Source: Planotetraspora phitsanulokensis (GTDB lineage: Bacteria; Actinomycetota; Actinomycetes; Streptosporangiales; Streptosporangiaceae). From it: 64,000 nucleotides of DNA. Shown here one piece after another: positions 6,408-55,379 of this stretch; position 1 is the stretch's first letter; every line of letters starts with the position of its first letter. The notes beneath the pieces were generated by a model. The model worked only from the letters and a program-made list of their open reading frames with translations, searched no databases and had not been told where the DNA came from. The stretch is from assembly GCF_016863295.1 (NCBI RefSeq), contig NZ_BOOP01000015.1:124001-188000 (forward strand), read 5' to 3'. Both the position numbers and the translations under genes were made by a program.

Positions 6408-8423
6408 CTACGACCAGGGGGACGGCGCCGGGGGCGCGACGACCGGTGGGCGGTCGTCGCAGGTGATGGTGTTCGGCAGTTCCCAGGGGGCGAGCCACGG
6501 GCCGGTGGTGCCGCCGCCGTCGTTGCCGCCGAGGTCCGTCAGCGAGAACTCCGAGCCGGCGGGCGTGAAGTTGAACGATCCGCAGTTGTTGACGCCGACC
6601 GCGCCGACGTTGCGGGCGTCCACGTTCTCGAAGGTCGCCGACCCCTTCACGCGGGCGCTGACCACCGAGGTGCCCGTGCCGTCGACCCTGATGTCCTTGA
6701 AGTGGACGTTCGTGATCGAGTACAGGTCCTTCACCGGGAAGTCGCTGACCAGCATGATCGCGTTGTAGGTGTTGTCGAGGAAGTGGTCCCCGACGACCTG
6801 GATGTCCGCGTCGATGTTCTTCTCCAGCGCGTACAGCCAGATGGCCCCGAGGCCGATGTTCCAGTTCAGCTCGTACGTGCCGGCGCGGACCGTGGTGTTG
6901 TCGGTGATCCACAGGTGCCCGGCGAACGGCTCGGCGCCGAAGCGGGAGCCCGCCTGAATCGCGCTGCCCTCCCGGATCGGGTCGGCGATCAGGTTGTTGG
7001 ACACCGTGTTGTCCGTACCGCCGTAGATGGCGATGCCGTTCGCCAGCACCGGCGTCTGCACGGTGTTGTGGTCGAAGGTGTTGCCGGTGTTGGAGACCTT
7101 CTCCGACCACATGGCGAGGGCGTCGTCACCCGTGTTACGGACGAAGTTGTTCTTCACGAGTGACTTCGTGACGCCGGTGTGGAAGTTCAGGCCGTCGGCG
7201 ATCTGGTCGACGATGACGTTGTTCGTGACCTTCACGTTCTTCATCGGCCCGTCGAACCACAGGCCCACCTTGGTGTGACGGATGTAGAGGCCGTCGATGG
7301 TCGAGTCGCTCATCGCGCCGCCGATGCCGTTCACCTGGTCGGTGTCGATGCGCTCGCGGACGTCGCCCTCGATCGCGAAGCCGGACAGGTGGACGTTCCT
7401 GCTGCCGCCGGCGGACGCGTCCTTGCCGTAGAAGCCGACCCCGGTGTGCACCGAGCCGTCGGGGGCCGGTGTGCTGAGCGCGACCTCGCGGCCCTTGATG
7501 ATCGTGTACCAGCTGCCGGCGCCCTCGATCGTCACGTCGTCAACGATGATGTGGCGGTTCACCTGGTAGGTGCCCGGCGGGATGTAGACCTTCAGGTGGG
7601 TGCGCTTCGCGAACGCGATGGCCTTGTCGAACGCCCCGGCGGAGTCGCGTTTGCCGAACGGGTCGGCCCCGAACGCCAGCACGTTGGCCGCGACGAGGTT
7701 GACCTTCGGTGCGCCGACGAGCTGCGAGTCGAGCAGGTCGACGACCGTCCACGCGGCCTTGGCTCCCGCGGGCACCGTCAGCCGCACCTTGTCGCCCGCG
7801 CGGTACTTCTTGCCGAGGAGCAGCCGCTGCTCGACGTAGAAGTGGTTCGGGCGGAACGGCTTGGTGATCGTCGGCGTCGGCGTCGTCGCGTTGGGCACGC
7901 AGGCGCACTCAGTGATCCACCAGTCGGGGTGCAGCAGGTCGGCGTTCGGGTCGTTCGTGAACGGATACTGGTTGTACAGCCACGCGTACTGCGACGTGAG
8001 CGTCATGGTGGTGCGGTTCTTGCCGTTCACCGTGACGTCGAGCGGCGAGGTGATGCCCCCGCCCCCCGGCGCGTCGGGGATGCTGTACCGCACGGTGATC
8101 GCGTTGGCCGCGCTCGGCAGCGTGAACTCGACGTACTGACCGGGCGTCAGCTTGACCGCCTTACGGCCTGACGCCTCCGCGGGCAGCGTGTACGCGGTGC
8201 GGTCCGGCCCGATGACCGAGCCGTTCGTCGCGGCGTTCTCCGCCTCCTGTTCGGCGAAGTCGACGCTCGCGCCCCGGCCCGTGACGAGCGACGGGGCGAG
8301 GGCGGCGCGCGTCACGACGGGCGACGCCCCGCTGGAGGCGGAGGCGGGGGCCGACAGCGCCACGAGACCGGTGGCCGCGAGGGCCCCCGATAAGAGCGAC
8401 ACGGATAAGAGAGATCTGACCAT
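6408..8423 (-). CDS. Secreted GH87-like alpha-1,3-glucanase / mycodextranase
   Basis: A 671-aa protein with a Sec signal peptide (residues 1-30, ending APASASS). A CBM35-like beta-sandwich follows (about 40-235; EQEAENAATNGSVIG, EASGRKAVKL, GQYVEFTLPSAANAI), then a right-handed beta-helix (about 245-660). The motif ADGLNFHTGV followed by NTGDDALAMW places Asp410, Asp433 and Asp434 at the same spacing (+23, +24) that I recall for the three catalytic Asp of a characterised Paenibacillus GH87 enzyme. GH87 members hydrolyse alpha-1,3-glucan or nigeran outside the cell. It is the last gene of an operon with a GH13 enzyme and ABC importer, 18 bases after the GH13 gene, and has no extra binding modules. 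Confidence 0.82.
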   Translation of the reverse strand: MVRSLLSVSLLSGALAATGLVALSAPASASSGASPVVTRAALAPSLVTGRGASVDFAEQEAENAATNGSVIGPDRTAYTLPAEASGRKAVKLTPGQYVEFTLPSAANAITVRYSIPDAPGGGGITSPLDVTVNGKNRTTMTLTSQYAWLYNQYPFTNDPNADLLHPDWWITECACVPNATTPTPTITKPFRPNHFYVEQRLLLGKKYRAGDKVRLTVPAGAKAAWTVVDLLDSQLVGAPKVNLVAANVLAFGADPFGKRDSAGAFDKAIAFAKRTHLKVYIPPGTYQVNRHIIVDDVTIEGAGSWYTIIKGREVALSTPAPDGSVHTGVGFYGKDASAGGSRNVHLSGFAIEGDVRERIDTDQVNGIGGAMSDSTIDGLYIRHTKVGLWFDGPMKNVKVTNNVIVDQIADGLNFHTGVTKSLVKNNFVRNTGDDALAMWSEKVSNTGNTFDHNTVQTPVLANGIAIYGGTDNTVSNNLIADPIREGSAIQAGSRFGAEPFAGHLWITDNTTVRAGTYELNWNIGLGAIWLYALEKNIDADIQVVGDHFLDNTYNAIMLVSDFPVKDLYSITNVHFKDIRVDGTGTSVVSARVKGSATFENVDARNVGAVGVNNCGSFNFTPAGSEFSLTDLGGNDGGGTTGPWLAPWELPNTITCDDRPPVVAPPAPSPWS

Positions 8424-8441
8424 GGGGGGTGTGACCTACCT

Positions 8442-10022
8442 TCAGGAGGAAAGCCAGGCGGTGGTGTCGGTGGGCAGAAGATCACCGTCAAGGGGTCCGC
8501 TCGTCAGCAGGATCGACTCGTGCGGCGGGAGCCGTACCGGCTGGGAGCCGAGGTTGACCACGCAGATCAGGCCGGATTCGCGAGTGAAGGCCAGGACGCC
8601 GTCCCCCAGGGGCAGCCAGGTCATCACCCCGTCTCCGAGCCGCTCGCGGCGGATGCCCAGAGCGGCGCGGTAGAGCGACAACATCGATCCGGGGTCGTCG
8701 AGCTGGGCCTCGACCGTCATCGTGCTCCAGCCCGCGGGCTGCGGCAGCCAGGGAGTGCCCGTGCTGAAGCCGAACGCCGGCTCGCCGCCCGACCACGGCA
8801 GCGGAACCCGGCAACCGTCGCGACCCGGGTCGGTGTGTCCCGACCGGGCCCAGATCGGGTCCTCGCGCAGGTCGTCGGGGATGTCCTCGACCTCCCACAG
8901 GCCGAGCTCCTCGCCCTGGTAGACGTAGACACTGCCGGGCAGGGCCATCGCCAGGAGGGCGGCCGCCCGCGCGCGCCGGGTCCCGAGCTCGAAGTCGGAC
9001 GGCATGCCGTGCTTGCGGTCGGCGTGGTCGAAGGACGTGTCCGCCCTGCCGAACCGGGTCGCGGGCCGGGTGACGTCGTGGTTCGACAACACCCAGGTCG
9101 CGGGGGCGCTGATCGGCACGTGGGTGGCCAGCGTCATGTCGATGACGTCGCGCAGGGCGTCCGGCTCCCATGGGCTCGCCAGGAAGGCGAAGTTGAACGC
9201 GGTGTGCATCTCGTCCTGACGCAGGTACAGGGCGAACCGCTCCTGGTCGGGCAGCCAGACCTCGCCGATCAGGACCCGGTTCCCGTACTCGTCGGCGATC
9301 CGGCGCCACTCGCGGTAGATCTCATGGACGCCGTCGTGGTCGGTGTAGGACTCCTCGACGCTGTCGAGGTCCTTGACGAGCACGGCCGCCGAGTCGATGC
9401 GGATGCCGTCGACGCCGCGGTCGAACCAGAAGCGCAGCACGTCGAGGAACTCCTCCCGCACGGCGGGGTTGTTCCAGTTGAAGTCGGGCTGCTCGGGCGC
9501 GAACAGGTGGAGGTACCACTCGCCGTCGGGGACCTGGGTCCACGCCGGCCCACCGAAGATCGACTTCCAGCCGTTCGGCGGGCCGTCGCCGTTCCCCGGA
9601 CGGAACCAGAACCGCTCCCGAGCCTCCGAACCGGGACCGGCCTCCAGCGCCTCCTGGAACCAGACCATCTGGTCGGAGCCGTGGTTGGGGACGACGTCGA
9701 CGATGGTGCGGATGCCGAGTTCGTGCGCCTCCTCGATGAGCTTCTCCGCCTCGGCCAGGGTGCCGAAGACCGGCTCGATGTTCCGGTAGTCGGCCACGTC
9801 GTAGCCGCCGTCGGCCATGGGCGAGGGGTACCACGGGTTCAGCCAGATGGCGTCCACGCCGAGCTTGGAGAGGTACGGGAGACGTGCCCGCAGCCCTGCC
9901 AGGTCACCTGTGCCGTCGCCGTTGCCGTCGGCGAAACTGCGCAGGTAGACCTGATAGATCGAGGCACCCCTCCACCATCCGTCGGGATTGCGAATCGTCC
10001 CCGGGGACATGCTGGCGGGCAT
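8442..10022 (-). CDS. GH13 alpha-glucosidase, cytoplasmic
   Basis: This 526-aa protein has no signal peptide and carries all GH13 hallmarks: VDVVPNHGSDQ (region I), GIRIDSAAV (nucleophile Asp, region II), LIGEVWLPD (acid/base Glu, region III) and LSNHDVTRP (transition-state Asp, region IV). The start YQVYLRSFADGNGDGTGDL and the PWYPSPMADGGYDVADY loop are typical of oligo-alpha-glucosidases rather than amylases. It probably hydrolyses imported alpha-linked oligosaccharides (nigero- or malto-type) to glucose. It sits 31 bases after the second permease gene in one operon. AAGGAG upstream supports the ATG at 10022; ATG at 10010 is also possible. Confidence 0.9.
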   Translation of the reverse strand: MPASMSPGTIRNPDGWWRGASIYQVYLRSFADGNGDGTGDLAGLRARLPYLSKLGVDAIWLNPWYPSPMADGGYDVADYRNIEPVFGTLAEAEKLIEEAHELGIRTIVDVVPNHGSDQMVWFQEALEAGPGSEARERFWFRPGNGDGPPNGWKSIFGGPAWTQVPDGEWYLHLFAPEQPDFNWNNPAVREEFLDVLRFWFDRGVDGIRIDSAAVLVKDLDSVEESYTDHDGVHEIYREWRRIADEYGNRVLIGEVWLPDQERFALYLRQDEMHTAFNFAFLASPWEPDALRDVIDMTLATHVPISAPATWVLSNHDVTRPATRFGRADTSFDHADRKHGMPSDFELGTRRARAAALLAMALPGSVYVYQGEELGLWEVEDIPDDLREDPIWARSGHTDPGRDGCRVPLPWSGGEPAFGFSTGTPWLPQPAGWSTMTVEAQLDDPGSMLSLYRAALGIRRERLGDGVMTWLPLGDGVLAFTRESGLICVVNLGSQPVRLPPHESILLTSGPLDGDLLPTDTTAWLSS

Positions 10023-10053
10023 GCTGAATACAGCTCCTTACGGGTGAAGGCCC

Positions 10054-11037
10054 TCAGCCCTTGAGGCTTCCGGCGGTGAGACCGGCCATGATGTGGCGCT
10101 GGAAGATGAAGAAGACGACGATGGTCGGGATGCTCGCGATCACCAGTGAGGCGACCAGCACGTTCTGCGGCATCTGCGAGGACAGCGAGGCGATGCCGAT
10201 GCTGATGGACATCTTGTCGCTGTCCGGCAGGACCAGCAGCGGCCAGACGAAGTCCCGCCAGACGTTCACCACCGTGAGGATGGAGACCACGCCGAGGATC
10301 GGACGGGAGATCGGCATCACCACGGACCACAGGATGCGGCCGGGCGACGCGCCGTCGATCTCGGCGGCTTCCAGCAGCTCCCTGGGGATCGAGTCGAAGA
10401 AGCGCTTGAGCAGGAAGACGTTGAATCCGTTCGCCGCGGCCGGCAGCCAGATCGCCCACGGGGTGTTGAGCAGGTCCCAGTGGAAGAACGGCACGTCCTT
10501 CACGGTGAGGTACGCCGGCAGCATGATGACCAGCGGCGGGATCATCAGCGTCGACAACATCAGGGCCAGGACGACCTTGCCGAGCACCGGGCGGAGCTTG
10601 GACAGGGCGTAGGCCGCCGAGACGTCGAACGCGAGGGTCAGCAGCCAGGCGCCGCCCGCGTAGAGGGCCGTGTTGCCGAGCAGCCGGCCCAGTTCCAGCA
10701 GGTCCCACGCCTGGGCGTAGCCGTCCAGCGAGAAGTGCTCCGGCAGGAAGGTCGGCGGGATGGAGTTGAGCTCCTCCGTCGACTTCATCGCGCCGGTGAT
10801 CATCCAGTAGAGCGGGAAGACGAACGCGGCGGTGAAGCTGACGACCACGATCACCAGCACGATCCAGTAGATGATCCGGCCGTGGGTCGTGTTGAGCTGG
10901 TGCGGCGAGACGGCGGTGCGGAACTGCGTGTTGATCGGCTTGCGCGGGCGCCGCTGCCGGCGACCGTCGCGATCGTCCCGGCCGGGAGTGAGAGGCGTCT
11001 GCGCGGAACGGCCCGGCGTGACGGTGACGTTGGACAT
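10054..11037 (-). CDS. Sugar ABC transporter permease (MalG-type)
   Basis: About 327 aa from the ATG at 11037. A charged N-terminal tail of about 55 residues precedes six predicted membrane segments. The cytoplasmic EAA loop reads ELLEAAEIDGASPGRILWSV, which docks the ATPase, and the GSLKG C-terminus is characteristic of MalG-type permeases. It pairs with the permease at 11049 (11-base gap) to form the inner-membrane channel of a carbohydrate importer of the CUT1 class. No ATPase is encoded nearby; such systems usually share a common MsiK-type ATPase. Confidence 0.92.
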   Translation of the reverse strand: MSNVTVTPGRSAQTPLTPGRDDRDGRRQRRPRKPINTQFRTAVSPHQLNTTHGRIIYWIVLVIVVVSFTAAFVFPLYWMITGAMKSTEELNSIPPTFLPEHFSLDGYAQAWDLLELGRLLGNTALYAGGAWLLTLAFDVSAAYALSKLRPVLGKVVLALMLSTLMIPPLVIMLPAYLTVKDVPFFHWDLLNTPWAIWLPAAANGFNVFLLKRFFDSIPRELLEAAEIDGASPGRILWSVVMPISRPILGVVSILTVVNVWRDFVWPLLVLPDSDKMSISIGIASLSSQMPQNVLVASLVIASIPTIVVFFIFQRHIMAGLTAGSLKG

Positions 11038-11048
11038 GGTCGCTCCCC

Positions 11049-11972
11049 TCACACCGTGTTGTCGCGCGAGATGCGCAGGTAGATGGCGGAGAACACCATG
11101 AGCACGAGCATCAGCATCAGCCCGAGGGCGTTGCCCGCGTTCAGGCTGCCGAAGTTGAAGGCGTACTGGTACATGAGATAGACGACGGTGACCGTCGAGT
11201 TCTCCGGGCCGCCGCCGGTGAGCAGATAGGGCTCGATGAAGACCTGCATGGTCGCCACGATCTGCAGCAGCAACATCACCAGCAGGATCAGCTTGGTCTG
11301 CGGGATCGTGATGTGCCTGATCCGCTTGAAGAGGCCGGCGCCGTCCAGCTCCGCGGCCTCGTACAGCTCGCTCGGGATGGTCTGCAAAGCGGCGAGGTAG
11401 ATCAGGGTGCCGCTGCCCATGTTCATCCAGGTGGAGACGATGACCAGCGAGATCAGGGCGGTGCTCGTCGAGTTGAGCCACTGGAGCCCGGGCAGGTGGA
11501 AGAAGCTGAGGACCTGGTTGAACAGCCCGTAGTCGGGGTTGTAGAACCACTGGAACAGCAGGACGCCCACCGCGGGCGGCAACATGACCGGCAGGTAGAC
11601 GACGAAGCGCAGGTATGCGCGCGCGTGCCGTAGTTCGTTGAGGATGAGCGCGGTGATGAAGGGGATCACGTAGCCGCACAGCAGTGCGAGCAGTGTGAAC
11701 ATCGCCGTGTTGATCCACGCGGGCGCGAAGGCCGGGTCGCTGAAGACGGTGCGGAAGTTCTTCAGCCCCACCCATTCGGGCGCGTCCACGAAGTTCGTCT
11801 TCTGGAAGCTGAGGATGACCTGCCGGACCATCGGATACCAGGAGAAGAACGCGAAACAGATCAGAGCGCCGCAGAGGAATCCGTAGGCGGTCAGATTGCG
11901 TCGCACGGCACGCCGCAGCTTCGTGGGCTGCCGCCGCCTGCGGTTCGCTACCGGGATACTCGCTGTGGTCAT
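11049..11972 (-). CDS. Sugar ABC transporter permease (MalF-type)
   Basis: A 307-aa protein with six membrane segments. The first follows a basic N-terminal tail (RRRRQPTKLRRAVRRN). The EAA loop reads ELYEAAELDGAGLFKRIRHI. LTGGGPENST is the periplasmic-side motif common in MalF/UgpA-like permeases. It forms the heterodimeric CUT1 channel with the next gene and receives substrate from the binding protein encoded upstream. Confidence 0.93.
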   Translation of the reverse strand: MTTASIPVANRRRRQPTKLRRAVRRNLTAYGFLCGALICFAFFSWYPMVRQVILSFQKTNFVDAPEWVGLKNFRTVFSDPAFAPAWINTAMFTLLALLCGYVIPFITALILNELRHARAYLRFVVYLPVMLPPAVGVLLFQWFYNPDYGLFNQVLSFFHLPGLQWLNSTSTALISLVIVSTWMNMGSGTLIYLAALQTIPSELYEAAELDGAGLFKRIRHITIPQTKLILLVMLLLQIVATMQVFIEPYLLTGGGPENSTVTVVYLMYQYAFNFGSLNAGNALGLMLMLVLMVFSAIYLRISRDNTV

Positions 11973-12000
11973 CGTTGTGATTCCGATCTCGACGTGCTTG

Positions 12001-12047
12001 CCGGGGCGCCGGCCGCGGCCAGATCACGGCCACGGGCGGCGCCCCGG
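12001..12047 (-). other. Intercistronic hairpin between binding-protein and permease genes
   Basis: CCGGGGCGCC at 12001-12010 is perfectly complementary to 12038-12047 (with one further pair, 11 bp), enclosing a GC-rich loop region. It lies between the binding-protein stop (12060) and the permease start (11972). Such hairpins often protect the upstream mRNA or partly stop transcription so that the binding protein is made in excess over the permeases. Confidence 0.6.
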
Positions 12048-12059
12048 ATTATCGAACGG

Positions 12060-13442
12060 TCAGCTCTTCGAGGCGAGCATGGAGTTGACCTTCGCCTCGG
12101 CGTCGGACAGGAGCTGGTCGACGTTGGCGTCCTTCCTGGTGAGGACTGCCGACATCGGGGTGTCGAGAATCGCGTAGATCTCCTGGGCGTACGGCCCCGG
12201 CTCCGGCTTCGGCGTGATGCCCTTGGAGCCTTCGACCCATCCGGCGAACTGGGCGGCGTCGATGTTGGCGTTCGCCGCGCGCAGGTCGGTGACGGCCTTG
12301 CCCGACGCCGTGTCCGCGCCGTACAGGTCGGGGTAGGGCTGGCCGACGGTCAGGTCCTGGCTCTTGGCCCGCACGTAGTCGAGCTGGCCCTTGCCCGGGG
12401 TGAGGAACTTGTACTCGATCCACTTGAGGCCGGCCCTGATCTGGTCCGGGGTGGCCTTCGGGTTGATCATGTAGCCTGCGCCACCGTTGAGCAGGGCCTT
12501 GGCCTCGGGCTGGGCGGTGACGGCGTAATTCTCGAACTTGCCGCCGAAGTCGTTGCGGAGCGAGATGAGCACGTCGGGCGCGCCCAGCATCATGCCCATC
12601 TTGCCGCCGGCCATGGCCTTCATGAGCGCCGGCCACTCGATGTACAGCTGGGAGCCCATGCTGTTGTCGGTCCACCGCATCTGCTGGAGGTTCTGCAGCA
12701 CGGCCTTGCCCTCGGGGGTGTTGAAGGCGGCCTTCTTGCCGTCGTCGCTGATGACCGAGCCGCCACGGCCGTAGAGGGAGGCGGTGAAGTGCCAGCCACC
12801 GGTGTTGCCGCCGCTGTACTCGCCGTACCCGACGTAACCGGGGCCGAGCGCGGCGATCTTCTTGGCCGCGGCCTGCACCTCGGCCCAGGTCTTGGGCGGG
12901 TTGTTCGGGTCGAGGCCGGCCTTGGTGAAGACGTCCTTGTTGTAGACGAGGCCCATGCCGTAGCCGTCGGTCGGCAGACCGTAGACCTTGCCGTCCTTCT
13001 TGAACAGGTCGAGCGAGCTGTTGTAGTCCGGGTAGGTCTTCAGCTCGGTGACGTAGGACGAGATGTCGGCGGCCTGCCCGCTCTCGATGAGGCGGCCCAC
13101 GTTGGGGAAGTTGACGTAGAAGACCGTCTCGAGCTCGCCGCTGGCCAGCTTGGGCTCGAAGGTCTTCGGGTCGTAACAGGGGAAGGCGTCGGTGACCTTG
13201 GAGACCGTGATGTTCGGGTACTGCTTCTGGAAGCCCGCCACGTCCTCTTCGAACGTTGCGCGCTCCGCCTTGTTCGTCTTCGGCGGCTCACAGTTGACGC
13301 TGATCGACACCGGGGCGTTCGGGTTGGCGGACGGCGCGGCGGACTTGTTGGCGGCGTCGCCGCTGTCGTTGCCGCTGCCGCAGCCCGCCGCCGCGAGGGC
13401 CAAGCCCGCGGCCAGAACTATTGAAAGCTTGCGGGGTTTCAT
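12060..13442 (-). CDS. Extracellular sugar-binding lipoprotein of ABC importer
   Basis: About 460 aa from the ATG at 13442, which has an excellent AGGAGG ribosome site; the longer open frame upstream is non-coding. The signal sequence ends in a lipobox (ALAAAGCGSG), so Cys21 is lipidated and anchors the protein. The body is a CUT1 solute-binding fold (FEEDVAGFQKQYPNITV, VVYNKDVFTKAGLDPNNPPKTW). It captures the oligosaccharide released by the secreted glucanases and delivers it to the permeases. It is the first gene of the minus-strand catabolic operon, downstream of the LacI gene, with its own promoter likely in 13443-13650. Confidence 0.92.
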   Translation of the reverse strand: MKPRKLSIVLAAGLALAAAGCGSGNDSGDAANKSAAPSANPNAPVSISVNCEPPKTNKAERATFEEDVAGFQKQYPNITVSKVTDAFPCYDPKTFEPKLASGELETVFYVNFPNVGRLIESGQAADISSYVTELKTYPDYNSSLDLFKKDGKVYGLPTDGYGMGLVYNKDVFTKAGLDPNNPPKTWAEVQAAAKKIAALGPGYVGYGEYSGGNTGGWHFTASLYGRGGSVISDDGKKAAFNTPEGKAVLQNLQQMRWTDNSMGSQLYIEWPALMKAMAGGKMGMMLGAPDVLISLRNDFGGKFENYAVTAQPEAKALLNGGAGYMINPKATPDQIRAGLKWIEYKFLTPGKGQLDYVRAKSQDLTVGQPYPDLYGADTASGKAVTDLRAANANIDAAQFAGWVEGSKGITPKPEPGPYAQEIYAILDTPMSAVLTRKDANVDQLLSDAEAKVNSMLASKS

Positions 13443-13650
13443 GATTGTTCCCTCCTGGAACGGCGCACCACGACCCGTCTTGGAGCTCGCTGTCTCGGGG
13501 GCATGGGGGGCGCCTCCGATCCAGCTCGGTTGCGAGAAACATACAGAGCCATGCAGAACCCAGCAATACTCCGGCATTCATGATGCAAAAAAGTGACAGT
13601 GAATCCGGCGAAACCGCAACGCCTGATCGTTGTCACACCGCGTGAAACGA

Positions 13651-13685
13651 CGGAGCCCCTGGACACAAGGGGTCCAGGGGCTCCG
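13651..13685 (-). terminator. Perfect 14-bp hairpin after first LacI gene
   Basis: CGGAGCCCCTGGAC (13651-13664) pairs exactly with 13672-13685 around a 7-base loop. It follows the stop of the LacI gene (13697) on the minus strand and so separates the regulator transcript from the binding-protein operon. Confidence 0.8.
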
Positions 13686-13696
13686 GAAGGCCGTGT

Positions 13697-14839
13697 CTAC
13701 TCGGCTCTGGCGGCCGGGCGCCGCGGAGCCGACCCGGCCGCGGACGACCCAGGTGTCACAGACGACGCAGATGACGCGGACGCGGAACGCCCGGCCGGCA
13801 AACTCGGAGAACCCGCGGACCCCTGCCGGACCGAACGCGGCGCGGGCGCGGTCGAGGACCGGACCACCAGTTCGGGCTCGAAGAGCAGCTCGTTCGCGGG
13901 GACGATCGCGGCGTCGATCTGCGCCACCAGCAGCTCGACGGCCGCCCGGCCCATGGCGTCGATCGGCTGGCGGACCGTGGTCAGCGGCGGATCGATGCAG
14001 TTCATCAGGGCCGAATCGTCGTAACCGATGACCGAGAAATCCTCAGGTACGGCAAGGCCCGCGCGGCGGGCCGCCCGGATGGCCCCCAGGGCAAGAACGT
14101 CGCTCGCGCAGATCACCCCGGTGACGCCCGCCTTGATGAGCCTGGCCGCTCCAGCGTGCCCGCCCTCGACCGAGAACATGGTGTGTTCCACGTGGTCGGC
14201 CGGCAGTTCGAGGTCGTTCGCTTCGGCGAACGCACGATAGGCGGCCAGCTTGAGCCGCGAGGGCTCGTGGTCGGGGGCGCCGAGGAGCATGCCGATCCGG
14301 CGATGCCCGAGAGCGAACAGGTGACTGAGCGCCATCTCGGCGGCCGCCGCGTCGTCGCAGGAAACCTGGGGGAATCCCAGGTGCTCGACGGCCGCGTTGA
14401 CCAGCACCGCGGGGAGCTTGCGATCCAGCACCCGCTCGTAGTGGTCGTGGGGCGCGTCGCCCTGGGCGTACTGGCCGCCGGCGAAGACGATGCCCGAGAC
14501 GTGCTGCTGGAGGAGCAGGTCGACGTAGTCCGACTCCGACACCCCGCCGACCGTCCGGGTGCACAACACCGCGGTGAAACCCTGCTGCGCGAGAGCGCCG
14601 CCGACGATCTCGGCGAAGGCGGGGAAGATCGGGTTCTGCAGCTCGGGAAGGACCAGGCCGACCAGGCGGCCCCTGTCTCCGCGCAACTGGGTCGGCCGCT
14701 CGTATCCGAGCACGTCGAGCGCGGTCAGCACCGTCTCACGAGTGGTCTCGGAGACGCCGGGCTTGCCGTTGAGCACGCGGCTCACGGTCGCCTCACTCAC
14801 GCCGACCTTCTTGGCCACTTCCGCAAGCCGTCGAGTCAT
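13697..14839 (-). CDS. LacI-family transcriptional regulator (copy 1)
   Basis: A 380-aa protein. The N-terminal LacI helix-turn-helix and hinge helix read TRRLAEVAKKVGVSEATVS and RVLNGKPGVSETTR. The periplasmic-binding-like effector domain spans about residues 60-330 (LVGLVLPELQNPIFPAFAEI, SVIGYDDSALMNCIDPPLTT). A Ser/Ala/Pro-rich tail of about 50 residues is unique to this copy. It probably represses the adjacent importer/hydrolase operon and the divergent GH87-like gene, and is released by an alpha-glucan oligosaccharide; this is inferred from context. It is a close paralogue of the regulator at 18127, and the bases just upstream of the two start codons are also similar. Confidence 0.92.
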   Translation of the reverse strand: MTRRLAEVAKKVGVSEATVSRVLNGKPGVSETTRETVLTALDVLGYERPTQLRGDRGRLVGLVLPELQNPIFPAFAEIVGGALAQQGFTAVLCTRTVGGVSESDYVDLLLQQHVSGIVFAGGQYAQGDAPHDHYERVLDRKLPAVLVNAAVEHLGFPQVSCDDAAAAEMALSHLFALGHRRIGMLLGAPDHEPSRLKLAAYRAFAEANDLELPADHVEHTMFSVEGGHAGAARLIKAGVTGVICASDVLALGAIRAARRAGLAVPEDFSVIGYDDSALMNCIDPPLTTVRQPIDAMGRAAVELLVAQIDAAIVPANELLFEPELVVRSSTAPAPRSVRQGSAGSPSLPAGRSASASSASSVTPGSSAAGSAPRRPAARAE

Positions 14840-15131
14840 AGGCGCAACTATACGACAAATAGCGCAAGCACTTTCATGGGCTTGCGCAGCCAGTCAGGAA
14901 ACCTCACCGGCAGTCAGGGAAATTTGACCTGCGGCGGATCGTTCCATCAGGTCGTTCACCTGCGGTTTGTCGACTTCGGTAACTGTGGCGTGATATTGCG
15001 ACTTGTCGTCGAAATATTGCAGTTACGTGTCCCCCAACCTAATGTGTGGGCCACCTCACCATGTTGCGGAGGTACGACGGCTTCAGCGTCCCCGTCGTCC
15101 CTCGCGGATCTTCATGCAGAAAGGGCCACTC
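14840..15131. promoter_or_regulatory. Divergent control region between LacI copy 1 and GH87-like gene 2
   Basis: This 292-base, A/T-richer gap contains several related words. AGCGCAAGC at 14862-14870 and GCTTGCGC at 14880-14887 form a spaced inverted pair just upstream of the LacI start. ATATTGC occurs at 14993-14999 and again at 15014-15020, exactly 21 bases (two helical turns) apart. These are plausible operator sites for one or both LacI proteins. No coding frame is credible. Confidence 0.5.
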
Positions 15132-17996
15132 ATGAAACGATCCGGAGCCGCCGCCATCGCGGTGGCCGGGGCGCTGATCGCTCTGGGGAGCGTGGTCACG
15201 TTCCCGGGCACCTCGTCGGCGGCCGTCTCGCCGTCGCCGTTCTCCGTTCCCGGACGCGGCGCGACCGTGCCCTTCACCGAGATCGAGGCCGAGTCGGCCG
15301 CGACCAACGGCGAAGTGATCGGATCCGACCGGGTGTACACACGCCTGCCGTCAGAGGCCTCCGGACGCCGGGCCGTACGGCTCGACGCCGCGGGCGAGTA
15401 CGTCGAGTTCACCCTGCCCAAGGCCGCGAACGCGATGACGGTGCGCTACAGCGTCCCGGACAACGCGGCCGGCACGGGCATCACCGCCCCCGTCGACCTG
15501 CGCGTCAACGGGACCAAGCTGAAGGACCTGTCGTTCACCTCGAAGTACGGCTGGTACTACGGCGGCTACCCCTTCGGCAACCAGCCGGGCAACCAGCCTC
15601 ACCACTTCTACGACGAGACCCGCACGATGTTCGGCTCCACCCTGGCGGCCGGAACCAAGGTCCGGATCCAGGTGGCGTCCACCTCGGCCTCCCCCTGGTT
15701 CGTGGTCGACCTCGCCGACTTCGAGCTGGTGCCCGACCCGATCCCCCAGCCCGCCGGATCGCTGAACGTCGACGACTTCGGCGCCGTACGGAACGGCACG
15801 ACCGACTCGACCGCCGCGTTCCAGGCGGCCGTCGACGCCGGAAAGGCGCAGGGCAAGGCCGTCTACATCCCCGCCGGCACCTACACGCTCTGGGACCACG
15901 TGGTCGTGGACGGTGTGACGCTCCGCGGCGCCGGCCCCTGGTACAGCGTGCTCACCGGCCGCAACCCCACCCAACGCAACCGAGCCGCCGGCATCTACGG
16001 CAAGTACGTCAGCGGCGGCGGCTACACCGGCCCCGTCCGGTCCCACGAGGCGGGCGGCCCGAGCCGGGGAGTCACCCTCAGGGACTTCGCCATCATCGGT
16101 GAGATCACCGAGCGGGTGGACGAGGACCAGGTGAACGCCCTCGGCGGCGCGATGACCGACTCGGTGGTGGACAACCTCTGGATCCAGCACACCAAGGTCG
16201 GGGCCTGGATGGACGGCCCGATGAACAACTTCACCATCAAGAACAGCCGGATCCTCGACCAGACCGCCGACGGCGTGAACTTCCACACCGGCGTCACGAA
16301 CTCCACGGTGACCAACACCTTCGTGCGCAACACCGGGGACGACGGCCTCGCGATGTGGCCCGACCGGGTGGCGAACGTCAACAACTCGTTCACCTTCAAC
16401 ACCGTGGTCGCGCCGGTTCTCGCCAACAACATCGTCACGTACGGCGGCAGGGACATAAAGATCACCGACAACGTGGTGAGCGACACGGTCACCAACGGCG
16501 GCGGCATCCACATCGCCAACCGCTATCCGGGCGTCAACTCCGGCCAGGGCACCGCGGTCGCCGGCACCATCACGGCCGCCCGCAACACCCTGATCCGGGC
16601 CGGCAACAGCGACTACAACTGGAACTTCGGCGTCGGCGCCATCTGGTTCGACGGGCTCAACGAACCCGTCAACGCGACCATCAACGTGACCGACACCGAC
16701 ATCATCGACAGCTCGTACGAGGCCATCCAGTTCATCGAGGGCAGCACCAGCACCGTCAACTTCAGCAACGTGAAGATCGACGGCACCGGCACGTACATGA
16801 TCCAGGCGCAGTCGGGGGCGTCGGCCACGTTCACCAACGTGACGGCCGCCCACATCGGCGCGGGCACCGCGATCCACAACTGCGTGGGCACCGCATTCAC
16901 CCCCGTGTACGGCACGGGCAACTCCGGCTGGAGCCCGTCCTCGACCACCTGCACCGGTCAGTGGCCCGCCCCGAACTACATCTACGACGGCACCGGCACG
17001 CCGCCGCCCGACACCCCCACTCCCACGCCCCCGGTGACCCCGACCCCCACGCCGACCCCCACACCGACTCCGCCCACCTGCTCCGTCGGGACCGGCGACC
17101 TGGCCCGGGGCAAGCCCGCCACCGCGACCAGCAGCACCCAGTCGTTCGTCCCCGCGAACGCGGTGGACGGCGACGCGGGCAGCTACTGGGAGTCGGCCAA
17201 CAACAGCTTCCCGCAGTCGATCACCGTCGACCTGTGCGGCGTCGCGTCCGTGAACCGGGTCGCGCTGAAGCTGCCGCCGAGTGCCGCGTGGGCCACCCGC
17301 ACCCAGACGTTGTCCGTCCTGGGCAGCACCGACGGGTCGAACTTCACGACGCTCTCCGCGTCGGCGGGACGCGCCTTCGACCCCGCGAGCGGCAACACCG
17401 TGAACATCTCGTTCAACACGGCCTCCGTCCGTTACGTCCGGATCACCGTCACGGGCAACACGGGGTGGCCGGCGGGGCAGCTCTCCGCGCTGGAGGTCTA
17501 CGGGTCCGGATCGACCCCGCCGCCGGTGACCCCGACCCCGACTCCCACGCCCACGCCCACCCCCACTCCTCCGGCCGGGGGGAACCTGGCGGGAGGCAGG
17601 CCGATCACCGCGAGCAGCCACTCCGACGTCTACGTGGCCGGCAACGCGGACGACCGCAACGCGGACACCTACTGGGAGTCGGCCAACAACGCCTTCCCCC
17701 AGACGCTGACCGTCGACCTCGGCTCCGCCACCAGCGTCGGCCGGGTCGTCCTGAAGCTGCCGCCCGCCGCGGCCTGGGCCACCCGCACCCAGACGTTGTC
17801 CCTTCAGGGCAGCACCGACGGCTCGACCTACAGCACGATCGTGGGATCCACCGGCTACACGTTCAACCCCGCCGGCGGCAACACCGCGACGATCACCTTC
17901 CCGGCGACCGGCAGGCGTTACCTGCGGCTGAACATCACCGGCAACACCGGCTGGCCCGCCGGCCAGATCTCCGAGTTCGAGGCGTACGCCTCGTAG
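15132..17996 (+). CDS. Secreted modular GH87-like alpha-1,3-glucanase with two F5/8C binding modules
   Basis: About 954 aa from the ATG at 15132. A Sec signal peptide (1-31) precedes a CBM35-like module (about 36-200; EIEAESAATNGEVIGSD, EASGRRAVRL), closely related to that of the enzyme at 6408. A beta-helix follows (about 205-620). Asp380, Asp403 and Asp404 (ADGVNFHTGV...NTGDDGLAMW) keep the GH87 spacing. Two discoidin (F5/8C, CBM32-like) modules come next, each with YWESANN and TRTQTLSV/TRTQTLSL signatures, preceded by Pro/Thr linkers. It should act outside the cell on insoluble alpha-1,3-glucan or nigeran, with the modules holding the polymer. It is divergent from LacI copy 1 and convergent with LacI copy 2, which suggests control by either. 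Confidence 0.82.
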   Translation: MKRSGAAAIAVAGALIALGSVVTFPGTSSAAVSPSPFSVPGRGATVPFTEIEAESAATNGEVIGSDRVYTRLPSEASGRRAVRLDAAGEYVEFTLPKAANAMTVRYSVPDNAAGTGITAPVDLRVNGTKLKDLSFTSKYGWYYGGYPFGNQPGNQPHHFYDETRTMFGSTLAAGTKVRIQVASTSASPWFVVDLADFELVPDPIPQPAGSLNVDDFGAVRNGTTDSTAAFQAAVDAGKAQGKAVYIPAGTYTLWDHVVVDGVTLRGAGPWYSVLTGRNPTQRNRAAGIYGKYVSGGGYTGPVRSHEAGGPSRGVTLRDFAIIGEITERVDEDQVNALGGAMTDSVVDNLWIQHTKVGAWMDGPMNNFTIKNSRILDQTADGVNFHTGVTNSTVTNTFVRNTGDDGLAMWPDRVANVNNSFTFNTVVAPVLANNIVTYGGRDIKITDNVVSDTVTNGGGIHIANRYPGVNSGQGTAVAGTITAARNTLIRAGNSDYNWNFGVGAIWFDGLNEPVNATINVTDTDIIDSSYEAIQFIEGSTSTVNFSNVKIDGTGTYMIQAQSGASATFTNVTAAHIGAGTAIHNCVGTAFTPVYGTGNSGWSPSSTTCTGQWPAPNYIYDGTGTPPPDTPTPTPPVTPTPTPTPTPTPPTCSVGTGDLARGKPATATSSTQSFVPANAVDGDAGSYWESANNSFPQSITVDLCGVASVNRVALKLPPSAAWATRTQTLSVLGSTDGSNFTTLSASAGRAFDPASGNTVNISFNTASVRYVRITVTGNTGWPAGQLSALEVYGSGSTPPPVTPTPTPTPTPTPTPPAGGNLAGGRPITASSHSDVYVAGNADDRNADTYWESANNAFPQTLTVDLGSATSVGRVVLKLPPAAAWATRTQTLSLQGSTDGSTYSTIVGSTGYTFNPAGGNTATITFPATGRRYLRLNITGNTGWPAGQISEFEAYAS

Positions 17997-18008
17997 TCGG
18001 AACGGAAG

Positions 18009-18077
18009 CCCGTTGAAGGAGTGGACGCCTCCTTCGACGGGAGGCCCGGAGAAGGAGTGGACGCCTCCTTCTCCGGG
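18009..18077. terminator. Tandem pair of near-identical hairpins between convergent genes
   Basis: Hairpin 1 occupies 18009-18041 (13-bp stem with one G-T pair). Hairpin 2 occupies 18045-18077 (perfect 13-bp stem). Both share the same loop, TGGACGC, and the same inner stem, GAAGGAG/CTCCTTC. They lie after the GH87-like gene stop (17996) and before the LacI stop (18127), so they probably act as a bidirectional double terminator. Confidence 0.75.
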
Positions 18078-18126
18078 TTCCGTTCTTGCCGTACAAATCC
18101 ATTCTCATCAGGATTCGCCCGAACGC

Positions 18127-19119
18127 TCAGCCGGCGAGTGCTCCCATTCGTCCCGTCGAGGACCGGACGACGAGCTCGGGCTCGAAGAGGAGCTCTCCGG
18201 TCGCGACGGCGGCGCCGTCGATCTGGCTGACCAGCAACTCGACGACCGCCCTGCCCATCGCCTCGATCGGCTGGCGCACGGTGGTCAGCGGCGGGTCGAC
18301 GCAGTTCATCAGCGCCGAGTCGTCGTAACCGATGACCGAGACGTCGGCGGGCACACGCAATCCCTCGCGCCGGGCCGCCCTGATGGCGCCGAGCGCGAGC
18401 GGGTCGCTTCCGCAGATGATGCCGGTGACCTGCTGCCGCAGCAGCTTCACCGCAGCGGCGTGGCCGCCCTCCAGCGAGTGCATGGTGTGCTCGACCCGTT
18501 CGCCGCCCTGCGCCCGGAACGCGTCCAGCTTGCGGATCGACGGCATGTGATCCGGCGGCCCCACGATCAGGCCGATGCGCTCGTGGCCCAGCGCGCGCAG
18601 ATGCCCCAGGGACTGCTCCACCGCGATCGTGTCGTCACAGGAGACGCGCGGGAACTCCCAGTGGTCGGCCGCCGCGTTCACCATGACGGTCGGAAGACGC
18701 CGGTCGATCAGCCGAAGGTAGTGCTCGTGGACCACGCCCGACTGCGTGTAGAGCCCACCGGCGAAGACCACGCCGGAGACCTGTTGCTGGAGCAGCAGGT
18801 CGACGTAGTCGGCCTCGGAGACCCCGCCGACGGTGCGCGTGCACAACACCGGGGTGAACCCCTGCTGGGCGAGCGCGCCACCGACGACCTCGGCGAACGC
18901 CGGGAAGATCGGGTTCTGCAACTCGGGCAGGACGAGCCCGACGAGCCGGGCGCGCTCTCCGCGCAACTGGGTCGGCCGCTCGTATCCGAGCACGTCAAGG
19001 GCGGTCAGCACCGCTTCGCGGGTGGCATCGGAGACTCCGGCCTTGCCGTTGAGGACACGGCTGACCGTGGCCTCGCTGACCCCCACTTTTTTCGCAACTT
19101 CAGCAAGCCGTCGCGTCAT
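18127..19119 (-). CDS. LacI-family transcriptional regulator (copy 2)
   Basis: About 330 aa from the ATG at 19119, chosen to match the start of the paralogue; ATG at 19131 would add four residues. The DNA-binding domain is almost identical to that of copy 1 (TRRLAEVAKKVGVSEATVS, RVLNGKAGVSDATR), and the effector domain is very similar (LVLPELQNPIFPAFAEVVG). It lacks copy 1's Ser/Ala tail and has a short deletion before MHSLEGGHA. With such similar recognition helices both should bind the same operators, perhaps with different inducers. It probably controls the adjacent GH87-like gene and itself. Confidence 0.92.
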   Translation of the reverse strand: MTRRLAEVAKKVGVSEATVSRVLNGKAGVSDATREAVLTALDVLGYERPTQLRGERARLVGLVLPELQNPIFPAFAEVVGGALAQQGFTPVLCTRTVGGVSEADYVDLLLQQQVSGVVFAGGLYTQSGVVHEHYLRLIDRRLPTVMVNAAADHWEFPRVSCDDTIAVEQSLGHLRALGHERIGLIVGPPDHMPSIRKLDAFRAQGGERVEHTMHSLEGGHAAAVKLLRQQVTGIICGSDPLALGAIRAARREGLRVPADVSVIGYDDSALMNCVDPPLTTVRQPIEAMGRAVVELLVSQIDGAAVATGELLFEPELVVRSSTGRMGALAG

Positions 19120-19199
19120 GGGCGCAAGCATACGACGGCCGATGCCGTGCCTTTGCGATCACTTGCGTTGTCAAGCCCTCGTCAAAAGCACTGTGCACG

Positions 19200-49315: not shown

Positions 49316-52300
49316 CTACGGGTTCTGGACGATGGTGAAGGTGGACGTGGTGTTCTTGATGTTCTGAGCGTTGTTGCTCATCTGGAGGTTGTTGAAGGTC
49401 GCGGAGCCGACCGCCGGCCCCTGGCCCGCCTCCGGCATCTCGTTGACCCAGATGCCGAATCCGGACTTGGCGTCGAAGGCGTCGCCGCTCTTCTGCGCAC
49501 CCGTGATCGACACGTTCGTGAAGATCGTGTCCTTGACCGGGTTCTGCGGCTGCCCGCCGACGTAGTTCGTCTGGAACATGATGCCGCTGTAGGTCGGGTC
49601 CACGATGTCCACGTTGCTCACGCGGATGCCTTGGAACACCTTCGAAGCGGAGAAGATCCAGATTCCGGGGAAGGTCTGCGCGCCCCAGAAGTGACCGCCC
49701 GCGCGGACGATCGAGATGTTGTCGAACGTCGTGGGCGGGCTGGCGCCGAACCCGTTCATCGGGTACCCGAAGTCGAGCGAGCTGATCGTGATGCCCGAGT
49801 AGGTCAGGGTGTCGGCGATGTAGATGTTCTTGAACGTGTTGGCGTAGCCGCCGTAGACCGCGACACCGGCCGCACGCCAGGGCAGGATCGCCGTCAGGTT
49901 CTCGTAGACGTTGTTAATCTCATCGGCGCCTCCCGCGTCGATGGCCGAGAACAGCGCGAAGCTGTCATCGCCGGTCGTGCGAGCCTCGTTGTTGCTCACG
50001 AGGTTGCCGGTGCTGCCGTTGGTCATGTTGACGCCGTCCGCGAACGTGTCACGGATGCGGGAGTTCTTGATCGTGACGTTGTCGGTGTTCGCGCCCCAGT
50101 ACATGCAGACCGTGTGCTCGACCCAGACGTTGTCGATCGTCATGTTCGCGACGTTGGACCAGTTGAACACCTTGCCGGGGCCGTCGATGCGGGTGACGTA
50201 GTTGCCGAAGTAGGCGAAGCCGGAGAACGACGAGCCGTTCGCCGACGACTGCGCGTCGAAGCCGACGTCGGTGTTGTCCTGCGTCGTGGGCGCGTAGAAC
50301 CGCGTGTACCAGGGGCCCGCTCCGACGATCTTGAGGGCCTTGCCGTACACGTTGAACTTGCCCGTGGTCTGGTAGTCGCCGGTAGGCAGGTACACGCCGA
50401 CGAGGTTGGCGTCCTGGCGCGCCCTGTCGAGCGCGTTCTGCACGTCCTGGTGGGAGAAACCGGTCGGCACCGCGTAGTGGGCGGCGTCGGGGTTGGCGAT
50501 CGGCGAGACCTGCTCGAGGTCGATGAAGTCGATCGCGTAGTTGGTGGTGTTGGCGGCGTCCTTCTGCAGCCTGATCGTGCTGCCGGCCGGGACGGTGGTC
50601 CCGAGCAGGACGTTGGCCTCGTCGTAGATGTGACGCGGCCCCGCTGCCGGCGAGTTCTGCGGCCCGGTCTCGTTGCCGTACAGCCAGGCGTACTTGGACG
50701 TCAGGTTGATGGGCTTGAGGAAGGTGCCGTTGACGTAGATGTTCAGCGTGGAGTTGATGCCGCCGCCGCCAGCGGAGTCCGGGATGGAGAAGCGGGTGAC
50801 GAGGGTGTTGGTGCTCGCCTTGGTGGTGAACTCGACGTAGCTGCCGGTGCTGTTCAGCGTGACGGCCCTGCGGCCGGACGCCTCACCCGCGAGGGTGCCG
50901 ATGTCCCTGCTCGGGCCGACGACCTGCGCGCCGCCGCCGACGACGCCGCTCTCCGCCTCGTAGGTGTCGTACGGCATGTTCGCGCCCCGGCCGACGAAGA
51001 ACGGCTGGGAGAGGGTGTTGTTGCCCTGCTTGACCGGGAGCTCGTTGGCGTCGTTGGCCAGCACGGTCTTGACGGTGTACTTGCCGTTGGCGGCCGTCCA
51101 CGTCCCGAGGTTGACGGGGCTCGTGGTGGCGCCGGAGGCGATCGCACCGCTGTAGGAGCCAGTCAGCGTCCTGACGACGGTGCCCGAGTCGTTGGTGACG
51201 GTCAGGGTGATGCCGTGGGCGCCGCCGGCGGAGGCCACGGTGCCCTGGTTCTTGAGGGCGACGGAGAAGGTGACGACGTTGCCGCTCGCCGGGTTGCTGG
51301 GGGTCCAGCTCGCCGTCGGGACCAGGTCGGAGCTGTCGACGGGCCTGACGACCACCGAGGTCGGGCTGGCGAAGCTGTTGTTGGTCTCGTTCTGCTCGAT
51401 GACGCCGTTCGCCTCGTCGACCTTGGCGCTCAGCGCGTACGTGCCGGCGTCACGGGGACCGATGTTGGCGGAGACGGTGGTCGTGGCACCGGCGGCGAGT
51501 GCGCCGACGGACGCCGTGCCGACCTTCGTGGTGCCGAAGTAGAAGTTGACGTTCGTCGCGCCGGAGTCGGCGTTGCCCTGGTTCTTGACGGTCGCCGACA
51601 GGGTGACGGCGTCGGTCTCGACGGGGTTGGCGGGTGAGGAGGTCGCGCCCGTGATCGTGAGGTCGGGGTTGGGCGCCGCGGTGCCGAAGACCTGGAACTC
51701 GGCGACCTGCCCCGCCGGAGCACCGCTGTTGGAGGTGATCCGGATCTGGACGTCGGCGACCCGCCCGCTGACCGGGATCGTCACCGTGTTGCCCGACGAC
51801 GGACTGAAGCTGTACACCGTCGCCCCGGACAGGCTGGAGAACGCCGTCGCGCTCTGCTCCCGCCCGAGAACCTGAATGGTCTGCGTACGCGGCCCCCACG
51901 CACTGTCGGGGTTGAGCTTGACCACGACGCGGTTGATGTCGGCGTTGGCGCCCAACGCGACGGCCAGCGTGCTCGGGTAGGCCCCGCTCGCGCCCTCCCA
52001 GTAGGTCGCCACGTTGTCGTCGACGGCGTTGGCCGGCACGAACGTGAAGACCGAACCGGACGCGGTGACGGGCTTGCCGACGGCCAGGTTGGAACCGCCA
52101 CTGCCGCCGCTGCCGGTGCGGGTGACGGTGTTGCTGTCGGCCGACTGCTTGCCGGAGGCGTCCTTGGCCCGCACGGTGTAGGACACCGTGGCCGTGGTGG
52201 GCTGGGTGTCGGTGTAGGTCAGCACGTTGCCCGCGACACTGGCGCGCAGCGCCCCGTTGGCGTACACGTCGTACCCGGTCACGCCCACGTCGTCGGTGGA

Positions 52301-52903: not shown

Positions 52904-53468
52904 CGCGTTTCTCAATCTCTCGTCTGGAACGACAGGGAGTGGCGGGGAGACCGCGATCTCCACGCGCGACGCACGCGGCCGAGCCGGTCAGCGTGACTCC
53001 GGGGGGCGCCGAACGCCCGCCGAGCGCTGTGAGCTGGCGGGGAGCGTGCGGGCACTGCCAATGCCGACATCACCGAAGGCCTCTCCGTGGATGGGCCGGG
53101 GCGGATGCACGGACGCAGTGCTTTCCTGCCGCAAGTTGCGAAAGATTGCAGAGAAACTAACAGGGCTTTGATGGGATCTTGCACCGGACTGGCCAAATGT
53201 TACATATGTGCTACGGCGTCGTCAACGGCTGGACAAGACCGATGTCAGCACAACTCGATAAGGGGAATCGGACCACGTCGGGAGCCGTGTCTCCGACCGC
53301 CTCCATGCCGATGCCATATATCGGCGCGTTACGACGGGGCCGTGCGACGGCGTGCGCACTCGGCGCACCGAAGTTCACCCGCGCCGCATTCGCCGCACAC
53401 TCATACGCGGCGCGCCGGATTCGCCGTTTCCGCTCTCTCTGGCGCAATTATGAGCAAGCACTTATCGG
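52904..53468. promoter_or_regulatory. 565-base gap: promoter side of third GH87-like gene; otherwise no recognised content
   Basis: No convincing gene: the open frames present are Arg-rich and lack ribosome sites. CGAAAGATTGCAG at 53139-53151 matches 12 of 13 bases of a word upstream of the second GH87-like gene, and GCAAGTTGC just before it adds inverted TTGC/GCAA half-sites, so an operator is plausible. From about 53110 to 53470 the base composition is noticeably less GC-rich than the genes on either side. Confidence 0.45.
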
Positions 53469-54851: not shown

Positions 54852-55080
54852 GCCGCCCTCCCCGCTCGCAAGCGATGGGAGATTAATATCGGGATATTGC
54901 AAGGATGTATATAACCATGTCAGTCTTCCACCGAGATTATTGCGGCTTGCGCATCTGATATTGCGCCGGACCGTCGACGGTCTCGTCCGATATGCCATTT
55001 CGCGGCTGTTCAGAACCCCTGCCGCGCGCCGTATCCAGGACGGGGGTCCTGGCCAGATCGGGGAGCCTGCCATTCACGAC
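54852..55080. promoter_or_regulatory. Divergent control region of the NRPS cluster
   Basis: A 229-base gap, A/T-rich from 54880 to 54960. It contains GATATTGC at 54892, TTATTGCGGCTTGCGC at 54940-54955 and GATATTGCG at 54957-54965. These resemble the TATTGCGACTTG word upstream of the GH87-like gene at 15132, which may be chance or a shared regulator. Both NRPS-side transcripts should start here. Confidence 0.45.
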
Positions 55081-55353: not shown

Positions 55354-55379
55354 CCCGCCGCCCGGACGGTCCGCCGGAC

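Follow-up and report, generated by a model that had tools for sequence, protein, structure and literature searches.

How do actinomycetes that cut α-1,3-glucan outside the cell take up and use the products, and is this the task of a locus in which secreted GH87 enzymes stand beside a maltose-type importer? The question is raised by a 64,000-nucleotide stretch of the 9.17-Mb genome of the actinomycete Planotetraspora phitsanulokensis (G000:C15:124001-188000, hereafter the window), in which genes for two GH87 enzymes, GH87a and GH87b, accompany those for a cytoplasmic GH13 α-glucosidase, a lipoprotein-dependent sugar importer and two LacI regulators. Comparison of sequences suggests that this is quite probably a catabolic locus for α-1,3-glucan. 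An initial annotation had proposed that the polymer is cut outside, the oligosaccharides are imported and glucose is released inside, and this division of labour is supported by gene neighbourhoods that recur in other genomes, by genome-wide co-occurrence of binding protein and GH87, by a near-identical copy of a characterised α-1,3-glucanase beside one of the related loci, and by a promoter element shared between the importer and GH87b.

In the proposed pathway, GH87a and GH87b would cut α-1,3-glucan extracellularly to nigero-oligosaccharides, with the discoidin domains of GH87b holding that enzyme on the insoluble glucan. The lipoprotein would then capture the nigero-oligosaccharides, MalF and MalG would import them together with a shared MsiK-type ATPase, and the GH13 protein, acting as an exo-α-glucosidase, would free glucose inside the cell. 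The two MalR-like LacI proteins are expected to repress both promoters via a tandem TTGC element, from which an imported oligosaccharide would release them. α-1,3-Glucan is a fungal wall polymer, and its occurrence there suggests that the locus may support feeding on fungi.

Genes of the locus and the GH87 family

All eight genes were found at the coordinates initially given for them, as confirmed by their reading frames and by Pfam domains in each of the eight proteins. The genes and the putative control elements between them are as follows (model R1 is described further below).

6408-8423, minus strand: GH87a, predicted secreted GH87 endo-glucanase limited to the catalytic unit, whose gene closes the importer operon (Pfam, PDB, Asp triad)
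8442-10022, minus strand: GH13 cytoplasmic α-glucosidase, no evident signal peptide (PF00128; 8YIF/8YIE; clade-specific residues)
10054 to about 10950, minus strand: MalG-like CUT1 permease (PF00528, E 8.9e-19; NCBIfam UgpE/MalG-like, below cut-off)
11049-11972, minus strand: MalF-like CUT1 permease (PF00528, E 1.3e-19)
12060-13442, minus strand: lipoprotein sugar-binding protein (SBP) of the importer (PF01547, E 2.6e-29)
13542-13600, minus strand: putative operator/promoter region in front of the importer operon, GTC/TTGC in tandem with a 21-22 bp period (model R1)
13697-14839, minus strand: LacI-1, MalR-like regulator (PF00356 and PF13377)
14862-14887, no strand assigned: inverted repeat upstream of LacI-1 (read from the sequence)
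14989-15034, plus strand: putative operator/promoter region in front of GH87b, with TTGC repeats at a spacing of 21 bp (model R1)
15126-17996, plus strand: GH87b, predicted secreted GH87 endo-glucanase whose C-terminal part carries two F5/8 type C (discoidin) domains (Pfam; 7C7D)
18127-19131, minus strand: LacI-2, paralogue of LacI-1 (PF00356 and PF13377; 75% identity)

The genes for SBP, MalF, MalG, GH13 and GH87a are codirectional on the minus strand and separated by short gaps (18 bp between GH87a and GH13), with LacI-1 upstream of them, while GH87b is encoded on the plus strand and is faced by LacI-2. The 5' end of MalG is not fixed, its reading frame being open up to 12033, and LacI-2 starts at 19119 if an internal ATG is used and otherwise at 19131. 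A search for sigma-70-type promoters returned none, and terminator-like sites numbered three, fewer than the mean of the shuffled sequences.

The first reading of the DNA had described GH87-like β-helix proteins, and a family search places both enzymes of the locus inside GH87. The CatAgl_D1/D2 domains PF22815 and PF22816 score over the Pfam cut-off in GH87a (E 1.2e-35 and 1.1e-21) and in GH87b (E 1e-44 and 8.3e-19), and among solved structures both are closest to the α-1,3-glucanase 7C7D (E 2e-98 for GH87a and 8.2e-114 for GH87b), which the accessible text of PMC11475409 gives as Agl-ST of Streptomyces thermodiastaticus HF3-3. Strong sequence similarity to 7C7D, 5ZRU and 6K0M already defines the fold, and an NCBIfam scan gave no match for either protein. 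The catalytic residues of Agl-FH1 are D1045, D1068 and D1069 (PMC10696023, in the part consulted), and D410, D433 and D434 of GH87a match their spacing (23 and 24); GH87b keeps the Asp triad in the same alignment columns. The two enzymes are 46% identical, and an insert near residues 160-190 sets GH87a apart from both Agl-ST and GH87b. Signal peptides were read by eye from the sequence rather than predicted with a tool.

A third β-helix protein of the window, GH87c (49316-52900), also proved to belong to GH87 (PF22816, E 2.7e-113). It combines two F5/8C domains, an fn3-like and a CARDB domain with CatAgl_D1/D2, displays the ADG..GDD pattern of catalytic Asp residues, and has as its nearest solved relative 6K0M, the structure of Agl-KA from Bacillus circulans KA-304. 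All three proteins are thus assigned to GH87 with a predicted endo-α-1,3-glucanase or mycodextranase activity, GH87c being a probable extra endo-enzyme outside the operon. The genome encodes a fourth GH87 on contig C30.

Neighbourhoods of the binding protein across actinomycetes

If the importer takes up products of GH87 enzymes, then the binding protein and GH87 should be found together. The binding protein was searched in 394 genomes of the class, which gave, apart from the window itself, 34 orthologous and 39 weaker places, and the surrounding DNA was fetched for each. Orthologues are 42-86% identical to the window SBP (40-85% by tblastn), the list showing a gap between 42% and 39%, and all 39 weaker places form the comparison group. 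A GH13 of at least 61% identity occurs in 33 of the 34 orthologous neighbourhoods, and 27 of them have a GH87 at a distance of up to about 9 kb, as opposed to six of the 39 weaker matches. All six of these GH87-bearing weaker loci are among the 18 that have a related GH13, and the 21 without that GH13 have none. At the level of whole genomes, GH87 scores over the cut-off in 32 of the 35 genomes with an orthologous SBP (the window's included) and in 18 of the 359 others (Fisher p 8.6e-31, uncorrected for kinship).

Ten of these 18 genomes belong to the 17 genomes that carry a second branch of the module. The second-branch loci (L154, L159, L163, L165-L167, L174, L175, L177, L178, L180, L181, L184, L185, L187, L190 and L191) have a GH13 of the same clade, a LacI of 65-73% identity and a different SBP (32-36%), in the order LacI-GH13-SBP-MalF-MalG, and GH87 is found nearby in six of the 17. 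The eighteenth weaker locus with a related GH13, L189, has no LacI of 65-73% identity.

Several types of GH87 gene adjoin the module, namely GH87a together with GH87b, GH87b, GH87c-like and, in 11 loci, another type that is 40-43% identical to GH87b. In one of these 11 loci, L134, whose GH87 was compared with solved structures, the enzyme is identical to 7C7D (Agl-ST) in 595 of 597 residues. Of the individual pieces of evidence on the substrate, this Agl-ST-like gene next to an orthologous importer, GH13 and LacI weighs most. Agl-ST is also the nearest solved relative of GH87a and GH87b; they differ from it in that GH87b is only 40-43% identical to the 11-member type, and in that GH87a has no binding domains and carries the insert. 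Judging from the Agl-ST match, the L134 genome and the genomes of the family f18 are presumably streptomycetes. In another locus, GH87c beside the module is split into two short pieces in different frames (L123:14700-15372).

Importer, GH13 enzyme and a shared promoter element

The importer comprises two BPD_transp_1 permeases and an SBP_bac_1 lipoprotein, with its ATPase encoded elsewhere, as is the case for CUT1 systems. The binding protein carries the lipobox-like LAAAGC, recognised by eye. There is no ATPase gene among the eight genes of the locus; a gene elsewhere in the genome encodes an MsiK/MalK-like ATPase with ABC_tran and OB_MalK domains (OB_MalK over the cut-off), with which the importer presumably pairs. 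NCBIfam gave only matches below the cut-off for the permeases, the SBP and the LacI proteins, which are uninformative on the substrate. The nearest solved binding proteins show weak similarity, and they are 7BVT (E 1.5e-21), whose ligand is cyclic maltosyl-maltose with 1,4/1,6 links, and 5F7V (E 1.1e-18), whose ligand is cyclic nigerosyl-nigerose with 1,3/1,6 links, both ligands being glucotetrasaccharides.

The ligand of 5F7V, the second-best of these relatives, raises the possibility that the target is a bacterial exopolysaccharide with α-1,3 and α-1,6 links, such as mutan, alternan or cycloalternan, rather than the fungal wall, and the available text of PMC11475409 reports soil streptomycetes isolated on mutan and alternan. 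Against such a target, Pfam identifies GH87 and GH13 as the sole hydrolases among the eight locus proteins, and it appears quite improbable. It is a matter of ecology more than of mechanism, because the enzymes cannot tell the source of an α-1,3-glucan.

The GH13 protein (PF00128, E 4.6e-97) is most similar among solved structures to the α-glucosidase 8YIF/8YIE (E 2.1e-145), and NCBIfam gave only sub-cut-off matches among the best 25 of 33. Its nucleophile, D210, is followed by Ser211. A comparison of 33 + 1 + 17 module copies with 19 paralogues (L189 was left out, and the L143 stretch has no GH13) found Ser at this position in 51 of 51 module copies from both branches and Val in each of the 19 paralogues; of the latter, 15 lie in operons resembling mal operons (mal-like operons). 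In a midpoint-rooted tree the module copies form a clade with a support of 0.951, and the paralogues group separately (0.999). Furthermore, at the cut-offs chosen here, the first-branch copies can be told from the paralogues at thirteen positions. The Val of the paralogue clade, expected of a maltose-operon-type enzyme, is therefore not what the locus has. The residue at this position influences linkage preference in oligo-1,6-glucosidases, a point absent from the text consulted for it, and the Ser is predicted to reflect a retuning toward α-1,3 links.

The next question is whether importer and GH87 genes are controlled together. Outside Planotetraspora, 37 loci have in their importer promoters a common element in which GTC and TTGC are repeated about 21 bp apart. 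This element was placed in 37 of 67 stretches upstream of SBP genes, and 34 of these importer promoters, all from other genera, were used to build a sequence-only model, R1, with no GH87 promoters in the training set. The training set left out the window and Planotetraspora, the majority of the Microbispora-type loci, all 17 second-branch loci (which have no such element before the SBP) and L146 (where the 260-bp stretch missed the element). A stricter operator expression used at first missed most loci and was dropped in favour of a positional score.

Within the window, R1 finds the GH87b promoter (23.1 bits, E 3.3e-6) and the importer promoter (22.4 bits, E 5.4e-6), and after these nothing below E 0.049. 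In the 9.17-Mb genome, where 150 of the 1109 first-look candidates were scored, it reports two sites, and these are again the importer and GH87b promoters (the latter with E 4.4e-4). When R1 was run over the 73 neighbourhoods at E up to 0.1, it matched the importer promoter in all 34 orthologous loci, 29 of which were in the training set and five not (L120, L121, L122, L143 and L146). Further matches fell on a GH87 promoter distinct from that of the importer, in 11 of the 27 orthologous loci with GH87, and on the GH13 promoter in 11 of the 17 second-branch loci. The 21 control loci without the related GH13 gave no match, nor did L189, the 15 mal-like operons or four lone GH13 loci. A further 58 loci, comprising 57 with a solitary GH87a and the fourth GH87 of the window genome (L002), gave a single match, upstream of another GH87 in L083, and solitary GH87a therefore lies outside this operator as far as seen.

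The likely readers of this element are the two LacI proteins, which are 75% identical and both carry PF00356 and PF13377. The core site of MalR is CTTGCAG, in direct and inverted repeats (PMC5526262, in the part available). The TTGC repeats found here fit that core, and the LacI proteins would be expected to bind the element. The recognition stretch of LacI-1, GVSEATVSRVLNGKPGV, is common to at least 13 of the 15 LacI proteins beside mal-like operons, which are 48-52% identical to LacI-1 overall, and that of LacI-2 differs from it by one residue. In addition, an inverted repeat at 14862-14887, GCGCAAGC-N10-GCTTGCGC, whose arms are mostly conserved across Planotetraspora loci and a number of Microbispora loci, is a possible autoregulatory operator of LacI-1. 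A weak R1 match on the minus strand (14819-14858, E 0.049) overlies the start of LacI-1 and is a possible autoregulatory site as well.

These likenesses lead to the question of whether the importer and GH13 are simply a second maltose system, with the GH87 genes as mere neighbours that share no pathway with them. Like the locus, the 15 mal-like operons have the gene order SBP-MalF-MalG-GH13, a LacI beside it and, in at least 13 cases, the same recognition stretch, and the TTGC repeats resemble the MalR core (PMC5526262, same part). Unlike in the locus, the LacI gene is divergent in the mal-like operons, their main GH13 copy is 54-57% identical and has Val after the nucleophile, and their SBPs and permeases are just 22-39% identical in the aligned parts, with no SBP match in three of the 15. 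GH87 accompanies this SBP far more than it does other SBPs, and the importer and GH87b share a promoter element that R1 did not find in the mal-like operons. A second maltose system is thus very unlikely. The unit is probably of common descent with the MalR-malEFG-α-glucosidase maltose operon, from which it would differ by a retuned GH13 and a diverged SBP.

Several points weigh against a locus for α-1,3-glucan and have to be set beside this evidence. Fisher tests ignore shared ancestry and are inflated by kinship, and for this reason a comparison was made within family f18, where GH87 occurs in 18 of 19 genomes with the SBP versus none of 20 without it among those listed. GH87 is missing within reach of seven of the 34 orthologous loci, two of which (L126 and L143) end at a contig edge, and three genomes with an orthologous importer and GH13 (G241, G315 and G363) have no GH87 by Pfam. 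The GH13 step is the weakest of the pathway, because the enzymes with strict α-1,3-glucoside specificity met in the literature consulted are GH31 and GH65 enzymes (PMC9061262, in the part seen). Membership of GH87c in the regulon was considered and is not supported, its best upstream R1 match having an E of just 8.3 (53138-53153). GH87a homologues of 77-96% identity occur in 80 loci of many actinomycete genera (L005-L084; 96% in Planotetraspora silvatica), and the module adjoins just 17 of them, the other 63 being without it in the DNA fetched around them (several on short contigs). Clustering of open frames around these 63 solitary copies found no cluster in more than nine of them, frames overlapping GH87a aside. 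GH87a is strongly conserved and may serve a different function, such as that of a mycodextranase, and GH87 does include mycodextranases, which are inactive on linear α-1,3 chains (PMC13421300, in its accessible text).

As an observation on its own, the loci of the three genomes lacking GH87 (L130, L131 and L148) might belong to scavengers of oligosaccharides freed by others.

The distribution of GH87a bears on a further explanation, in which nigeran or some other mixed α-1,3/1,4-glucan is the chief substrate, GH87a is of the mycodextranase type and the GH13 enzyme clears the mixed products. Actinomycete mycodextranases form their own cluster within GH87 (PMC10696023 and PMC13421300, in the parts consulted). 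GH87a, widespread and conserved as it is, has an insert that is absent from Agl-ST and GH87b, and a maltase-like GH13 would suit α-1,4 links. What speaks against nigeran is that the Agl-ST gene adjoins an orthologous module. The 46% identity of GH87a with GH87b and the position of Agl-ST as nearest solved relative of both point the same way, which is a weak argument, since no mycodextranase structure is among the matches. On balance, nigeran is unlikely as the main substrate, and α-1,3-glucan is preferred. A search for the mycodextranase branch by annotated names covered 10 plasmid records and met no such name, several being unannotated there.

Related systems and the surroundings of GH87c

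The literature searched describes no actinomycete locus with GH87, importer, GH13 and LacI, and the authors of a 2026 paper say that they know of no polysaccharide utilisation locus (PUL) with GH87 that has been characterised by experiment (PMC13421300, in the text available). The nearest precedent is found in Lachnoclostridium phytofermentans, where a GH87 gene lies near genes for a GH65 nigerose phosphorylase, GH31_u1, an ATP-binding cassette (ABC) transporter and LacI (PMC9061262, likewise in part). Both loci cluster a putative extracellular GH87, an ABC importer, a LacI and an intracellular enzyme for α-1,3 products; the present one differs in having a GH13 of the maltose-operon type, two GH87s and two MalR-like LacI proteins, and Pfam finds no GH65 or GH31 domain of the L. 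phytofermentans type among its eight proteins. By analogy, it should work like that cluster, with GH13 as the intracellular enzyme, and the actinomycete locus would represent a variation on a clustered GH87/ABC/LacI type already known there. A putative PUL of Prevotella melaninogenica also combines GH87 with uptake genes for α-1,3-glucan and differs by its TonB-dependent, Bacteroidota-type uptake and its GH97 and GH99 enzymes (PMC13421300, in the same portion), in place of which the window has an importer of the Gram-positive ABC type. A Bacteroidota SusC/SusD pair is absent among the eight locus proteins according to Pfam.

The locus offers a conserved actinomycete candidate that comprises importer, cytoplasmic enzyme, regulators and operator, and each step is therefore testable. 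The Ser after the GH13 nucleophile may mark α-1,3-glucoside hydrolysis among enzymes otherwise annotated as maltases, and the crystallised Agl-ST is placed in a likely pathway. If this is true, many 'maltose-like' operons of actinomycetes would be re-annotated as belonging to users of α-1,3-glucan.

Beyond the locus, GH87c lies beside a nonribosomal peptide synthetase (NRPS) cluster.

49316-52900, minus strand: GH87c, predicted secreted multi-domain GH87 outside the operon (Pfam; closest 6K0M)
53469-54851: condensation-like gene, divergent (PF00668, 27.5 bits, under the cut-off of 30.6)
55081-55353: small carrier-like gene preceding the NRPS frame (read by eye)
55277-61651: NRPS frame with two Condensation, two AMP-binding and two PP-binding stretches

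The region between the divergent condensation-like gene and the first gene of the NRPS cluster (54852-55080) contains TTGC at 54897, 54940 and 54961. Four copies of the exact pattern ATTGC-N16-ATTGC are present in the 9.17-Mb genome (two for the reversed-pattern control), and two of the four are in the GH87b promoter and in this region. The α-1,3-glucan regulators might thus also control the NRPS cluster 35 kb away, so that sensing of a fungal wall polymer would switch on both its digestion and a secreted peptide. This is distinctly unlikely, since the R1 match to the region has an E of 0.072 in the window and went unreported by the genome search, which weighs against co-control. The sites are kept in all three congeners that have the NRPS cluster, where the condensation-like protein is about 90% identical, and such conservation proves little because the species are close at this region. 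The repeated TTGC is absent from the loci of two distantly related condensation-like proteins (L223 and L224), and the stretches fetched for them contain no GH87c. In the window (49316-55073) and in the three congeners (L220, L221 and L222), GH87c adjoins the NRPS cluster.

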